DNA from: an uncultured Pelagibacteraceae bacterium | Lineage (GTDB): Bacteria > Pseudomonadota > Alphaproteobacteria > Pelagibacterales > Pelagibacteraceae | Length of the DNA stretch: 63,892 nt | Direction: 5' to 3' | Assembly (NCBI GenBank): GCA_902631255.1 | Contig: CACOXS010000004.1 | Coordinates: forward strand, 1 to 63,892 | Part shown: piece by piece, positions 36,122 to 45,663 of the stretch | Position numbering within the stretch: position 1 is the first letter of the stretch | How the letters are laid out: the number at the start of each line of letters is the position of its first letter | Program-made: the position numbers and the translations under genes | Notes under the pieces: generated by a model | Told to the model about the DNA's origin: nothing | The model's input: only the letters and a program-made list of their open reading frames with translations | The model's database searches: none

Positions 36122-37374
36122 TGACTACAAAGAAAAAAAGTAAAAAGAAAAAAAGTAAAAAGAAAAAAGTCAAAAAAAAAGAGGACTGGTCAGAAATTTC
36201 ATTTTCAACTTCGGAATTAACTTATTATGATTTAATTGTTGAAGAAAAAAATTTAAATTCTATTGAAAAAATAAATGAACAAATTTCAAACGTTATTGGA
36301 GGTGGAGAAAATGTGTCTACATCCCATTTGGTCCTTGGAGATCTAAAACACTATAAGGATAAAGCCCTTAACTCAAGCTATCTCACAATAGACAGCACTG
36401 ATATCACTTCTTTTGATTACACAATTGAAAACCAAGGTAAATTAGTTGCAACACCAAAAAAGGGGGAAGTTGTTTTTATATTTTACTATCGTTATGACCA
36501 TGCAGGTTATTCTCTCACAAAAAATAAAAATTTTACTAATGTTTGTTTTAAAGTGAAATCGTTTAAGAACGAGGCGGTTTTGGCAGAAATGGACGACCCA
36601 GGTTTTGAACTCACTGCGCATGATGCAAGCGGTGGTGGTGTGATGTGTTTAGAAATTATATGTGCTAACGGAAAAACTTTTGAGGGATCGGTAGAGTACA
36701 AAGATGATTTAATTCAAGAGTTTCATACTTATCTTACTAATAAGCAAAAAAAACTTTCGCAAGATAAAGGTGAAAATTATTTAATCAAAATACGACCCTC
36801 TTTTCTATTCAATAAAATAAATGATTGGGAAAACGACGAAGGCCTAGATAAAGATGATAAACCAACTCAAGAAGCTACAGACTATTGTATTGTTCAGTTA
36901 AAAGCTTTTATTGATGAATTAAAAGAAAAAGTTGATGGAATAATTGGAGAAAAGATTCTAATAAGCACCAAACACCCAAGTTACTCCGATAGTTCCAAGG
37001 CCTCCTTTAATTCAGAAGACTTTCATGAATTAAGTGAATTTAAAAATACGTTTAAATCTATCGATTGGCAAGATCTAAATGTTTACATTTTATTAACAAA
37101 AGAAATATCAGGAAAAGATCTTAATAGTACATTTTTAAGTATGTCTGACTATGCTTTTGGTGCTAGCTATATTACTGAGGGTGAAATTGTTACTCAAGGT
37201 TATGACAATGGAGAATATGATACTGGCTATTTTGCTGTAACTCTAGGTAATTGGGATCTTGATGTAGAACAATATTTAAACAAAGGTAGTTATGTCCATT
37301 TGTCCTTAGAAGAATATAACAAAGTTTTGACTTATCTTACTAATAAGCAAAAAAAACTTTCGCAGAATAATTAA
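36121..37374 (+). CDS. Hypothetical protein with lysine-rich N-terminus and internal repeat
   Basis: The 417-residue protein opens with a lysine/serine run (about residues 3-21), then a globular part including VVFIFYYRYDHAGYSLTKN and DDPGFELTAHDASGGGVMC. The peptide TYLTNKQKKLSQ appears near residues 203-214 and again at the C-terminus, encoded by an exact 35-base repeat. Start and stop overlap both neighbours by one base. No family recognised. Confidence 0.7.
   Translation: MTTKKKSKKKKSKKKKVKKKEDWSEISFSTSELTYYDLIVEEKNLNSIEKINEQISNVIGGGENVSTSHLVLGDLKHYKDKALNSSYLTIDSTDITSFDYTIENQGKLVATPKKGEVVFIFYYRYDHAGYSLTKNKNFTNVCFKVKSFKNEAVLAEMDDPGFELTAHDASGGGVMCLEIICANGKTFEGSVEYKDDLIQEFHTYLTNKQKKLSQDKGENYLIKIRPSFLFNKINDWENDEGLDKDDKPTQEATDYCIVQLKAFIDELKEKVDGIIGEKILISTKHPSYSDSSKASFNSEDFHELSEFKNTFKSIDWQDLNVYILLTKEISGKDLNSTFLSMSDYAFGASYITEGEIVTQGYDNGEYDTGYFAVTLGNWDLDVEQYLNKGSYVHLSLEEYNKVLTYLTNKQKKLSQNN
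36727..36761 (+). repeat. 35-base direct repeat, copy 1
   Basis: Exact copy of 37330-37364, 603 bases (201 codons) apart and in the same frame. It encodes TYLTNKQKKLS and begins ACTTATCTTACTAATAAGC. Confidence 0.85.
37330..37364 (+). repeat. 35-base direct repeat, copy 2
   Basis: Exact copy of 36727-36761, placed at the very end of the same gene. Recombination between the two would remove 201 codons without changing the frame. Confidence 0.85.
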
Positions 37375-38030
37375 TGAATTTGAGCGAACATCAAAAGGTA
37401 AAGCTTCAAGCAAAAGGACATATTCATTGGATAGATAAAAAATCAAATAGTATTTATAAAATATATAAAATATTTAATCTTTTAGATGACTTAAAAGATA
37501 TTGAAAAAAGATTAAGTCAAATAGTTAAGCTTTCATCTTCAATGGATTTTATACCTCAAACAAATTATTTCTACGAGGAAGATTTACTAGTAATGAAACA
37601 AAAATGTTTAATAAATAAAAAAAAATTAAAAGAAATTGATCCTTCAGAAAAAATAAAATTAATAAAAAAATTTGCTCAATCACTTGATAAACTATATGCA
37701 GAGGAATTTGTACATGGTGATATTAATCGAAAAAATATCATCTATTCTGAAAATAACTTATTTTTAATTGATTTTGAACCATCACTACTACAAATTAAAG
37801 ATCAGACCAAGCAATGGATGTCCACAAGACCATATCGACATCACGCGGATATTCAAAATAATAATATTACAGCAAAGTCAGACTTTCTAGGTTTTGCATG
37901 TTTTGCAAAATGGTTTTTATTTAACAGCAATTGTCCACAGCATTATGTAAAGGAATGTTCAAAAATAATTACTAAGTTGAAATTTCAATCATCTCCTTTC
38001 CAAAACTTAATAAAACTATTTGCTAATTAA
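37374..38030 (+). CDS. Protein-kinase-like protein
   Basis: The 218-residue protein has the eukaryotic-like kinase core in compact form. A VAIK-like lysine lies in YKIYKIF (K29/K32). The catalytic loop is HGDINRKN (H114, D116, N121), followed by LIDFEPS (D133, DFE replacing DFG), an activation-segment-like STRPYRHHADI, then KSDFLGFACFAKWFL, resembling the SDVWSLG helix. It lacks a glycine-rich loop. Its start overlaps the preceding stop. Possible substrates are the neighbouring proteins. Confidence 0.72.
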   Translation: MNLSEHQKVKLQAKGHIHWIDKKSNSIYKIYKIFNLLDDLKDIEKRLSQIVKLSSSMDFIPQTNYFYEEDLLVMKQKCLINKKKLKEIDPSEKIKLIKKFAQSLDKLYAEEFVHGDINRKNIIYSENNLFLIDFEPSLLQIKDQTKQWMSTRPYRHHADIQNNNITAKSDFLGFACFAKWFLFNSNCPQHYVKECSKIITKLKFQSSPFQNLIKLFAN

Positions 38031-42144: not shown

Positions 42145-42942
42145 ATGAAAAAAATTGCACTTTGCTATGATTTTGATGGAACTTTGTGTTCAGGGTACAT
42201 GCAAAATCAAAAACTTATTCCAGATTGTAATTTAGATGTAAAAGAATTTTGGACATCTGTTACTGAAAATTCAAAAAAAAATAATATCGATCCAACTCTA
42301 TCTTACATGCATCTATTGGAAGAAAAAATGCATCAGGCAAAAGTGGAAATTTCAAAACAAAATTTTAATAAATATGGTCAAAAGTTAAAATTATTTTCTG
42401 GTGTAAATGACTGGTTTAAAAGAATAAAAGATTTTGGAAAAAAAAATAATATTGAAGTTGAACATTATATTATCTCTTCAGGATTAACGGATATGATAGA
42501 AGGTTGTGATTTTAGCAATGAATTGAATAAGATTTATGCTTGCGAGTATATTTATAAAGATGGAAGAGGAATATGGCCAAAACTATCAGTAAATTATTCA
42601 AATAAAGTCCAATATCTCTATAGAATTCATAAAGGAGCTTTTGATGTCAGCGATCAAGAGGGAGTAAATCAAAAGAAATATTTTGGGGATCATATACATG
42701 TTCCTTTTGAAAATATGATTTTTTTTGGAGATGGTGAAACTGATGTTCCTACTTTCAATGTAGTAAATAAGAACAATGGCAAATCTGTTTGTATTTATGA
42801 AGAAGGAAATGAAAAATCAATGAGTATAGCAAAAAAATTATTTTCTGACGGAAGAGTTCATCATGTTGTTAAAAATAATTACGAAGAAAACTCTGATATT
42901 GATTTATTAATAAAAGATATAATTAAATCAAAAATAACTTAG
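42145..42942 (+). CDS. HAD-superfamily phosphatase-like protein
   Basis: The 265-residue protein has all HAD motifs: I, YDFDGTL (D9, D11); II, ISSG near 110-113; IV, FFGDGETDVPTF (195-204). A cap region lies between motifs I and II. It is likely a phosphohydrolase with an unknown substrate. It is transcribed away from the broken gene upstream. Confidence 0.85.
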   Translation: MKKIALCYDFDGTLCSGYMQNQKLIPDCNLDVKEFWTSVTENSKKNNIDPTLSYMHLLEEKMHQAKVEISKQNFNKYGQKLKLFSGVNDWFKRIKDFGKKNNIEVEHYIISSGLTDMIEGCDFSNELNKIYACEYIYKDGRGIWPKLSVNYSNKVQYLYRIHKGAFDVSDQEGVNQKKYFGDHIHVPFENMIFFGDGETDVPTFNVVNKNNGKSVCIYEEGNEKSMSIAKKLFSDGRVHHVVKNNYEENSDIDLLIKDIIKSKIT

Positions 42943-43204: not shown

Positions 43205-45244
43205 CTAAAGATCCCTATCTAATATTATATCTTTTCTATTATTTTGAACTCTTTTGTACAAATATATAGCAATACTTATTAGTGATAACGGAATAATGAA
43301 TTTCAAAAATCCACTTGTGTAATAATGTATTTTTTCAGTAATTAATGATGATAAACTGAAAGCGGTGATGGTGAAACCATTTACGATGTAAAACCAAATG
43401 AAAATAATATCAATGATTGTTAATTTTTTCGGTTCAGGTTTTTCAACAGAAAAATATAGAGCAATTGCTGATAAGAAAGTTGTGGTTAATATTCCTATAC
43501 TTTCACCCGATTTATCAAATCCTAAAAATACAGAATAGTAAACTAGGAAAGTTAAGAAGAACATTGGTATACCAATCTTAAAAAGAGTTGCGGTATTCTT
43601 TCTTCTTAAGGTCCAACCCAACCTATTTTCACTTGATACGGTAACTGTTTTTTTAAGATCAGTATCTTTGTATAAAAAGTTTTTCTTATATTTTATACCA
43701 GAGAAAGCATTCTCGATATGCCACTCATTTATATCAAATTCATCATCTACTAATTCTAGTGGAATTGGTTGCAAGATATGCTTAGAGTTATCTTTAAGTG
43801 TCATTGAAATGTAAACACTTTGCCAATCAAAAGGATAATTATCTGCAATTGCTAAGAAATCAAAATTTGCAACTATATAATATCTAACTGTATTATAATC
43901 ATCGTCATCTTTCCTTCTCCAAATTTCTTTTGAAGAAAACTTATCGTTCGTTGAAGATAAATTATTAAAAATTACCTGATCTAAAGGGTTATCTGACTGC
44001 GATACAAGATCTAAATAAAATTCTGCAGTCCATGTTTTTTCTTTAATATCAATATTGGTTATTCTGAGTACATCAATATAATTATATATTGTATTAAATT
44101 GCTGAATCTTACCATTTACTGTTGAAAATTGAGTTGGATGTAAAATTTTTGGAATTTTATATTTCTCATTTTGAAGTGAATTTGGAAATGAATAAGCATA
44201 ATTTTCTTTAAGTATATTTTCATTATTTTGATTAAATCCATATTGAATTCTCTTTCCAACAAATACGTCACTTTCATTATTGAAAGACAAAATACTCTCT
44301 AAAATTTTATCATCATTAATGTCTTCTGAATTATTTGCATAACATTTTTTTAGAGCCTGAAATGCAATTATAGGAATTTCAAGTCTAAATGTACTATCAA
44401 GTAATAATGCTTTGTCAGTTGGCGTTACGTTTTCTCCATAAATTTTTGACATTAAATCTTCAATAGAAACCGATGGAATTCCATGATTGCCTACTAATTG
44501 AATTAAGTTAAATGTTATTTTTTCAAATCTGTTCTCAATTGAACCAAATGTACTGATAACTTTGTTGTGTAAATTATTATCGAGTAAATGATTAAATACG
44601 TATTTAAATCTACTTAAATTAAGATCTAAAACTATTAAATCATCTGGTTTTAAGTCTTTAAAAATATTTTTTACTTTTTCATCCGCTTTTGTTTCATCAA
44701 AATTCTTAAAAGAAAAACTGGTAAAATTTTTATCATCGTTATGATTTTTTAGCATTTTTTCAGCCAATCTTAATTCTTGATGTAAAAAATAAATTTTATT
44801 TGATGAGTGATTTATAATTTCATTATCAATAAATTTTAATTTTGCTGGTTGATCTGCTCTTGAAACTTTAAATATTCTTTTTGAAATATTGGGATCTAAA
44901 TCCTTTAATCCTGTTGTTGTGATATTTTGTGGAAAATAAAAAAAATTTTTATCTTTAATCTTATCAATTATTGATGGATTATATTTATTTATAGAATGTC
45001 CATTGGTAAAGAAAGGATCATTTATTTCATTAAATTTACTCGATAACTGATTAATACCATCTTCTCCTCTTTGAACATGAAGAAAATCTATACTAAAATT
45101 AAATGGAAATTTTTTTCTCTTTATCTCTTCATTAATCTCTTCATTTATTAATTCACAACTTCGTCTTAAAAAGCCTGCAACAAAATTATTTTTTTCTTCA
45201 CCTATAGCAAGAGAAGAATACCAAACAAGGGATCTATAATTCAT
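43205..45244 (-). CDS. Pentameric ligand-gated ion channel homologue fused to a type I periplasmic-binding-like domain
   Basis: The 679-residue protein has three parts. Residues about 1-370 alternate strands and helices like type I periplasmic-binding/ANF-receptor proteins (SLAIGEEKNNFVAGFLRRSC...INEEIN near the start; KRIFKVSRADQPAKLKFI; KIYFLHQ). Residues about 385-550 resemble the Cys-loop extracellular beta sandwich (TWTAEFYLDL, ANFDFLAIADNYPFDWQSVYIS with the Pro-loop YPFD at 470-473, no Cys pair). Then come four membrane helices: M1 553-574 with KIGIP, M2 581-600, M3 608-635, M4 645-665. No clear signal peptide precedes the first domain. The ligand and ion are unknown. Confidence 0.75.
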   Translation of the reverse strand: MNYRSLVWYSSLAIGEEKNNFVAGFLRRSCELINEEINEEIKRKKFPFNFSIDFLHVQRGEDGINQLSSKFNEINDPFFTNGHSINKYNPSIIDKIKDKNFFYFPQNITTTGLKDLDPNISKRIFKVSRADQPAKLKFIDNEIINHSSNKIYFLHQELRLAEKMLKNHNDDKNFTSFSFKNFDETKADEKVKNIFKDLKPDDLIVLDLNLSRFKYVFNHLLDNNLHNKVISTFGSIENRFEKITFNLIQLVGNHGIPSVSIEDLMSKIYGENVTPTDKALLLDSTFRLEIPIIAFQALKKCYANNSEDINDDKILESILSFNNESDVFVGKRIQYGFNQNNENILKENYAYSFPNSLQNEKYKIPKILHPTQFSTVNGKIQQFNTIYNYIDVLRITNIDIKEKTWTAEFYLDLVSQSDNPLDQVIFNNLSSTNDKFSSKEIWRRKDDDDYNTVRYYIVANFDFLAIADNYPFDWQSVYISMTLKDNSKHILQPIPLELVDDEFDINEWHIENAFSGIKYKKNFLYKDTDLKKTVTVSSENRLGWTLRRKNTATLFKIGIPMFFLTFLVYYSVFLGFDKSGESIGILTTTFLSAIALYFSVEKPEPKKLTIIDIIFIWFYIVNGFTITAFSLSSLITEKIHYYTSGFLKFIIPLSLISIAIYLYKRVQNNRKDIILDRDL

Positions 45245-45252
45245 AGAAAAAT

Positions 45253-45663
45253 TTAATAAGCTAATTTACCATTAAGAATTATTGCGTAACCTGCTCCTGT
45301 ATAGTCTCCTTCACAATCAATGTATTTTTGAAATTCTTTTGTTACCTTTTTCTTATTTTTTTCATCTTGAAAAACTTCAGACAGTCTATCAGTCCAAATC
45401 TCACCTTTTTTGTTAATAATATCATCTCTTTCTTTATTAGATATGGTCTTATCATCTACCCAACAATACAAATATCCATCTGGATCACCTGAGTCTTGCT
45501 CACCTAATACTCCTCCTTCCCAATCCCAATAATCTAATTCCACTTTTATTTTTGGGTTATTTAAATGTAATTGGGTTATTTTTCTAATCATTTCTTCTGC
45601 TAATTTAAAAACTTTTTTTGTATTAGGATCTTTATTTGATGCAATTAAATCTTTTGTGCTCAT
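45253..45663 (-). CDS. Hypothetical protein upstream of the channel-like gene
   Basis: This 136-residue soluble protein is rich in acidic residues, with YWDWEGGVLGEQDSGDPDGYLYCWVDD in the middle and a C-terminal GAGYAIILNG strand. It ends 8 bases before the channel-like gene and is probably co-transcribed with it. Not recognised. Confidence 0.65.
   Translation of the reverse strand: MSTKDLIASNKDPNTKKVFKLAEEMIRKITQLHLNNPKIKVELDYWDWEGGVLGEQDSGDPDGYLYCWVDDKTISNKERDDIINKKGEIWTDRLSEVFQDEKNKKKVTKEFQKYIDCEGDYTGAGYAIILNGKLAY

Follow-up and report, generated by a model that had tools for sequence, protein, structure and literature searches.

The window analysed here, a stretch of 63,892 nucleotides from a SAR11 genome rated 57% complete, carries a gene that raises a question of topology: on which side of the membrane does a receptor lie whose two sensor-like domains are normally extracellular, when it is made without an export signal? 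A sequence-only reading had described the product as a Pro-loop receptor (Cys-loop superfamily) fused to a type I periplasmic-binding-protein (PBP-I) domain, had placed both domains outside the membrane, and had found the missing signal puzzling. The parts of the gene are as follows.

43205..45244, minus strand: the whole fusion gene, 679 aa from an ATG start, with PBP-I and Pro-loop receptor parts and without a signal peptide.
44165..45244, minus strand: type I periplasmic-binding-protein fold, residues 1 to about 360 (the fold match extends to about 385), beginning at the first beta strand, MNYRSLVWYSSLAIG.
43595..44164, minus strand: ligand-binding beta-sandwich of the Pro-loop receptor, residues about 361-550, from phmmer, profile, Foldseek and VIA comparisons.
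43826..43837, minus strand: Pro-loop YPFD, residues 470-473, with P471, F472 and D473 invariant in 11/11 rows.
43523..43585, minus strand: M1, residues 554-574 (hydrophobic stretch 554-577), with KIGIP and its proline P560, preceded by the basic pre-M1 residues RRK.
43445..43498, minus strand: M2, the predicted pore helix, residues 583-600 (hydrophobic stretch 582-600).
43352..43423, minus strand: M3, residues 608-631; the M3-M4 link after it is short and contains a single K in the window protein.
43256..43306, minus strand: M4, residues 647-663 (hydrophobic stretch 642-664).
43208..43255, minus strand: conserved basic C-terminal tail, KRVQNNRKDIILDRDL, residues 664-679.

The presence of a Pro-loop receptor joined to a type I binding fold in a SAR11 genome is borne out by phmmer, Foldseek, VIA and hhalign. 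Pentameric ligand-gated ion channels (pLGICs) were the top phmmer matches among PDB sequences (an octopus sensory receptor at 6e-4 and CRT1 at 6.9e-4, then a GLIC-GlyR chimera at 1.4e-3 and squid CRB1 at 8.1e-3), and a profile of 11 close orthologues did no better, its single match being the GLIC-GlyR chimera at E 0.0099. With a profile joining the SAR11 fusions to other fusions, E was 8e-31 for LivJ-type proteins and about 1e-12 for GLIC, values that are no test of the window protein alone because the profile contains the relatives. The HMM search suggested with the earlier reading turned out differently: no Pfam family scored above cut-off for the window protein, and Neur_chan_LBD/Neur_chan_memb (PF02931/PF02932) and Peripla_BP_6 were listed neither for it nor for the orthologues L007 and L008; the source genome was also unmatched by PF02932 in a search of 299 phylum genomes and by PF02931 in one of 247 family genomes. 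The link to Peripla_BP_6 is made via the predicted fold and via relatives that match this family, L029, L035 and L036 doing so at 4.2e-35 or better.

In the AF2 model (whole-chain mean pLDDT 57.6), the N-terminal half has block pLDDT values of 64-91 (residues 1-230), 42-65 (231-290) and 71-84 (291-320). Foldseek matched this half to PBP-I folds (LivJ/LBP, GABA-B and the iGluR ATD), and the bilobal binding fold that had been anticipated for it was recovered by VIA over model residues 1..386 (Z 14.3, 329 aligned, rmsd 4.2), the residue-level alignment of this half being unreliable. The channel half was modelled with pLDDT of about 23-75, below 50 over most of residues 464-679, and a second model, of residues 366-679, had a low mean of 48.5; this low confidence arises because only close orthologues were usable for modelling. 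The best 50 Foldseek rows listed for the second model were all pLGICs; their TM-scores, lowered by the poor quality of the model, were just about 0.2-0.4. VIA placed the beta-sandwich at Z 9.4 (113 aligned, rmsd 4.2) and Z 9.3 (106 aligned, rmsd 3.0), a match that, since both channel-half models are of low confidence, supports the pLGIC reading and does not alone prove it. The beta-sandwich and four transmembrane (TM) segments expected of a channel are thus both present. The individual motifs named beforehand, YPFD, KIGIP in M1 and a Pro-loop free of a Cys pair, lie exactly where they had been placed (the only Cys residues of the window protein are at 30 and 301), and the four helices coincide with the four hydrophobic stretches. 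The Pro-loop proline and aspartate, the basic pre-M1 segment and the M1 proline are retained; these are the elements that couple the ligand domain to the pore, and the proline of the Pro-loop is a conserved feature of the superfamily (Jaiteh et al. 2016, PMC4795631).

The gene is patchily distributed and under purifying selection. Its 11 relatives, at 68-99% identity, all come from Pelagibacteraceae or Pelagibacter records, the 99% relative being a fragment. The fusion gene occurs in 4/397 family genomes, the source genome counted, and the full fusion in at least 4 of 247 order genomes, the other matches listed being open frames of 351-569 aa; a class-level search matched the source genome alone of 385, few of which belong to its own family. 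No relatives were found among 150 pattern stretches of viral contigs, or by tblastn against phages and plasmids. The 14 SAR11 rows considered below amount to 11 distinct proteins because those of L013, L014 and L015 are identical to those of L009, L007 and L008, respectively; the 200-residue fragment L010 was excluded from the SAR11 fusion counts. All 11 share the same start and full length. Seven pairs of orthologues gave an overall dN/dS of 0.056-0.139, with the TM domain among the most conserved parts (0.007-0.043, computable in 6/7 pairs), values that are rough because many pairs have dS close to saturation. The window gene itself resembles a recombinant, its sensor half being 93% identical to L001 and 78% to L003, and its ligand domain and TM part 98-99% identical to L003 and 87-94% to L001; sensor halves may have been exchanged between SAR11 strains.

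The fusion is known in kind, and what is new is the absent export signal together with a reversed charge pattern. PBP-I+pLGIC fusions were reported in Magnetospirillum and Bradyrhizobium by Tasneem et al. (2004, PMC549065), so that the fusion as such is not new, and we rejected its architecture as a novelty. All bacterial pLGICs found by 2004 had a predicted signal peptide according to the same paper. Jaiteh et al. (2016, PMC4795631) named Pelagibacter among pLGIC-bearing organisms and removed extra N-terminal domains ahead of alignment; SAR11 together with a ligand-gated ion channel was not found in the open-licence literature searched. Our comparison set of proteobacterial fusions (L029-L036, L077-L085, L089, L090 and L093) is drawn up without the full-length matches G886:C83 and G865:C144 and without the proteins that PMC549065 describes from Magnetospirillum and Bradyrhizobium. 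These fusions share with the SAR11 form the order of PBP-I domain, beta-sandwich and four TM segments, the Pro-loop, and homology over residues 193-663 (hhalign, probability 94, E 1.3e-7). They differ from it in that 20/20 have a hydrophobic N-terminal segment, their M3-M4 loop is more basic, and no more than one K/R follows M4. When 28 rows were placed in a tree, the grouping of the SAR11 with the other fusions had low support (66/40) and the stem branch of the SAR11 clade was very long (2.82). Descent from signal-bearing fusions does not emerge from this tree, so that a "loss" of the signal is itself inferred; the signal may have been lost from a signal-bearing fusion ancestor, or the fusion may have arisen twice.

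More distant pLGICs were also compared. GLIC and other solved pLGICs have the same beta-sandwich and four-helix layout and the M1 proline, but are without an N-terminal PBP-I domain; GLIC itself has a Pro-loop without Cys, a signal peptide and an external ligand domain. DeCLIC is a bacterial pLGIC with an extra N-terminal domain, which however consists of two periplasmic beta-rich jelly-roll lobes rather than a PBP-I fold (PMC9897478). The stand-alone pLGICs of the same family (L040-L049) share the Pro-loop receptor core and differ in their hydrophobic N terminus (9/10) and canonical charge bias (+3 to +7). Distinct stand-alone pLGICs were matched in 9/247 SAR11-family genomes by PF02931 at E <= 0.01, and in L044, L045 and L049 the N-terminal part is longer. 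Proteins of another kind are encoded at L095:112-3222 (minus strand) and L099:1438-4458 (plus strand): their N-terminal half matches the PBP-I+pLGIC fusion profile to about position 528, their C-terminal end is an MscS-type channel domain (PF00924, E 4.3e-21 and 1.1e-17), no YPFD-like motif was found in them and Pfam Neur_chan_LBD was not listed. Here a receptor module has apparently been joined to a mechanosensitive-type pore; further open frames of about 1000 aa occur in the class of genome G830.

The missing signal peptide, flagged early as an odd feature, is shared by the SAR11 orthologues. The window protein starts with MNYRSLVWYSSLAIG, which is the first PBP-I strand in the model. When export signals were judged by N-terminal hydrophobicity (KD maximum over 15 aa), the SAR11 fusions scored 0.37-0.72 from Met and still only 0.38-1.13 (14 rows) when the whole open frame was read, so that none of the 11 distinct orthologues has a strongly hydrophobic N terminus. 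The full-length PBP-I+pLGIC relatives have a hydrophobic N-terminal segment ahead of that strand throughout (2.24-3.63 in 8/8 and 2.24-3.16 in 12/12), as do SAR11 LivK-type binding proteins (1.83-2.33 in 16/16) and 9/10 stand-alone family pLGICs (1.89-2.63), the exception L040 being low (0.49) because it is cut at the locus end. Two other low values have their own causes or context: L037 (0.25) is a long open frame of which the first 110 residues alone were scored, and L087 (0.98) is without its N-terminal part. Possible alternative starts exist: in L001, L008 and L015 a TTG precedes the ATG by 5-11 codons, and in L003, L009 and L013 an ATT precedes it within the open frame. In 13/13 orthologous loci the reading frame is closed by a stop codon 1-20 codons before the start (7 codons in the window), with just 1-4 codons between stop and start in 6/10 distinct loci (L003-L007 and L009). 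A longer start hiding a signal peptide was rejected on the strength of these close upstream stops and the low hydrophobicity of the whole open frame.

The loop charges also differ from those of other pLGICs. In the canonical orientation the M1-M2 and M3-M4 loops are cytoplasmic and the M2-M3 loop and C terminus external; we defined the charge bias as K+R in the former pair minus K+R in the latter. Pre-M1 was not counted, since every pLGIC in the comparison is basic there. This bias is -8 to -5 in 14/14 SAR11 fusion rows (11 distinct proteins), which as one clade count as one event, and 0 to +7 in 32/32 controls, two of which are 0. The controls comprise 20 PBP-I fusions, 2 other bacterial pLGICs and 10 SAR11 stand-alone pLGICs of the same family (+3 to +7), and are partly non-independent, some fusion pairs being 81-97% identical. 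An earlier count on 20 of the controls gave +2 to +7; L036 is now +1 instead of +3 because the alignment shifted. Left out of the table were L017/L038 (one gene, for which L038 yielded no motif-bearing open frame), L019 (incomplete) and the incomplete fusions L027/L087, L086, L088 and L091. With pre-M1 counted, the values are -12 to -9 for the SAR11 fusions versus -2 to +5 for controls; the groups separate with or without pre-M1, and its basic residues were therefore rejected as the cause of the result. The reversal can be located: each SAR11 fusion has 5-6 K/R after M4, where each of the 32 controls has at most 2, in a conserved tail of the form KRVxNNRKDIxLDRDL, and the M3-M4 link is reduced to roughly SSLITEKIHYYTSGF, with 1-2 K/R in the SAR11 fusions. 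As there are only four hydrophobic segments, the N and C termini should lie on the same side, and the absent signal, the basic flanks and the basic tail would all fit both ends inside.

We propose that the gene probably encodes an inward-facing pLGIC subunit with an N-terminal PBP-I sensor, upside-down relative to known pLGICs and with cytoplasmic termini. Both the lack of a signal and the charge reversal in the loops suggest that the sensor domains are in the cytoplasm, contrary to the external position first assigned to them; the positive-inside rule behind this reading is statistical. No pLGIC of reversed orientation was found among the papers listed from the open-licence literature searched, which gives the proposal a low prior. 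We also lean towards seeing here a natural reversed-orientation branch of Pro-loop receptors, in which a cytoplasmic sensor would let an internal metabolite open an ion pore. Five subunits would form the pore, as in a presumed pentamer, with the PBP-I and beta-sandwich domains hanging in the cytoplasm and binding an intracellular small molecule, perhaps an amino-acid-like metabolite as the PBP-I fold suggests. Sensor closure would reach M2 by way of the retained coupling elements (Pro-loop, pre-M1 and M2-M3), and the pore would open. An alignment of M2 with that of GlyR, taken from the orthologue profile search, places E581 of the window protein at -1' and L591 at 9' in the prime numbering of GlyR M2. 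E581 is invariant in the SAR11 fusions and would face the periplasm at the mouth of M2. Cation channels usually have a glutamate followed by R/K directly before M2 (PMC549065), and because the sequence here is E-S, cation selectivity is a guess. The channel might serve as an ion valve triggered from within the cell, or as a switch that depolarises it.

The gene lies in a variable neighbourhood, which includes the following two genes.

45253..45663, minus strand: cistron of 136 aa that stops 8 nt short of the fusion start, with no Pfam match.
42145-42942, plus strand: HAD-like protein matching the candidate phage-defence family PDC-S34 at E 7.5e-97.

L002 and L011 have the same cistron directly upstream as well, and it did not turn up in any other locus of the comparison. 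The directly upstream cistron varies between loci, and the fusion gene showed no constant partner. No terminator-like site was found around the fusion gene and promoter-like sites are not in excess there; the repeats detected, two weak families of two copies each and AT-rich inverted pairs lying far apart, were taken as chance. At 37374-38030 (plus strand) the window encodes a small protein-kinase/RIO-like gene, weakly similar to the defence kinases PD-T4-6 and MkoA. Near one fusion copy, L006:9171-10763 (minus strand) encodes a 530-aa protein that matches the DUF4116 repeat nine times (E 1.4e-144), and related ORFs (cluster c6) lie near L001, L009, L010 and L013.

How far the proposal holds depends on the alternatives. 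The SAR11 fusions could have the canonical orientation, their 550-residue N-terminal part being exported without a classical signal, with M1 as a reverse signal-anchor or through a dedicated helper, and the basic C-tail tolerated outside. In favour of this, the ligand-binding domain of known pLGICs is described as external (PMC549065), the SAR11 fusions keep the coupling elements (Pro-loop, M1 proline), and basic pre-M1 residues are common to all pLGICs compared. Against this stand the want of a strongly hydrophobic N-terminal segment, the 71 K/R within residues 1-550, and loop charges that oppose the positive-inside rule by 5-8 residues. Moreover, the signal-less N-tails that bacteria export are generally short. 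We regard the canonical orientation as unlikely. The four helices might instead form no channel and simply anchor a cytoplasmic binding-protein/beta-sandwich sensor, for which the long stem branch (2.82 changes per column) and the predicted status of the pore can be cited; the strong conservation of the TM domain (6/7 pairs) and the keeping of the Pro-loop, the M1 elements and the M2 segment speak against it, and we give it a slim chance. An artefact (a wrong start, a frameshift or a decaying gene) has nothing specific in its favour, the completeness rating of the window genome aside, and is made very unlikely, to the point of being negligible, by the orthologues, 11 distinct proteins with the same start and full length and dN/dS of 0.06-0.14.

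A role in phage defence, in which a cytoplasmic infection-linked molecule would open the inward-facing pore and depolarise the infected cell, is a special case of the inward-facing explanation and compatible with it. The patchy occurrence of the gene and its variable neighbourhood are in keeping with such a role, as are the PDC-S34 match next to it and the PDC-S34 genes close to the fusion copies L001 and L005, together with the weaker PADLOC matches of a kinase-like neighbour and of a gene in L002 that resembles Cas4. However, the channel protein itself matches no PADLOC model, the PDC-S34 gene lies on the opposite strand and is present in just 3/15 stretches (three of which repeat others, and some of which are short), and 8/10 neighbour proteins checked had no match, the exceptions being two PDC-S34 genes. 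The PDC-S34 neighbour is a lead for a defence role and not evidence of one, and we see an outside chance of this role being the actual one.

The inward-facing explanation, which we prefer, bears on the Pro-loop receptors at large. If this branch is flipped, the coupling of receptor to pore would work in either membrane orientation, and the SAR11 fusions would represent a natural experiment on the evolution of opposite membrane-protein topologies. The in vivo role of bacterial pLGICs has been stated to be unknown (PMC4795631), and a flipped branch would shift the question of that role towards intracellular signals.
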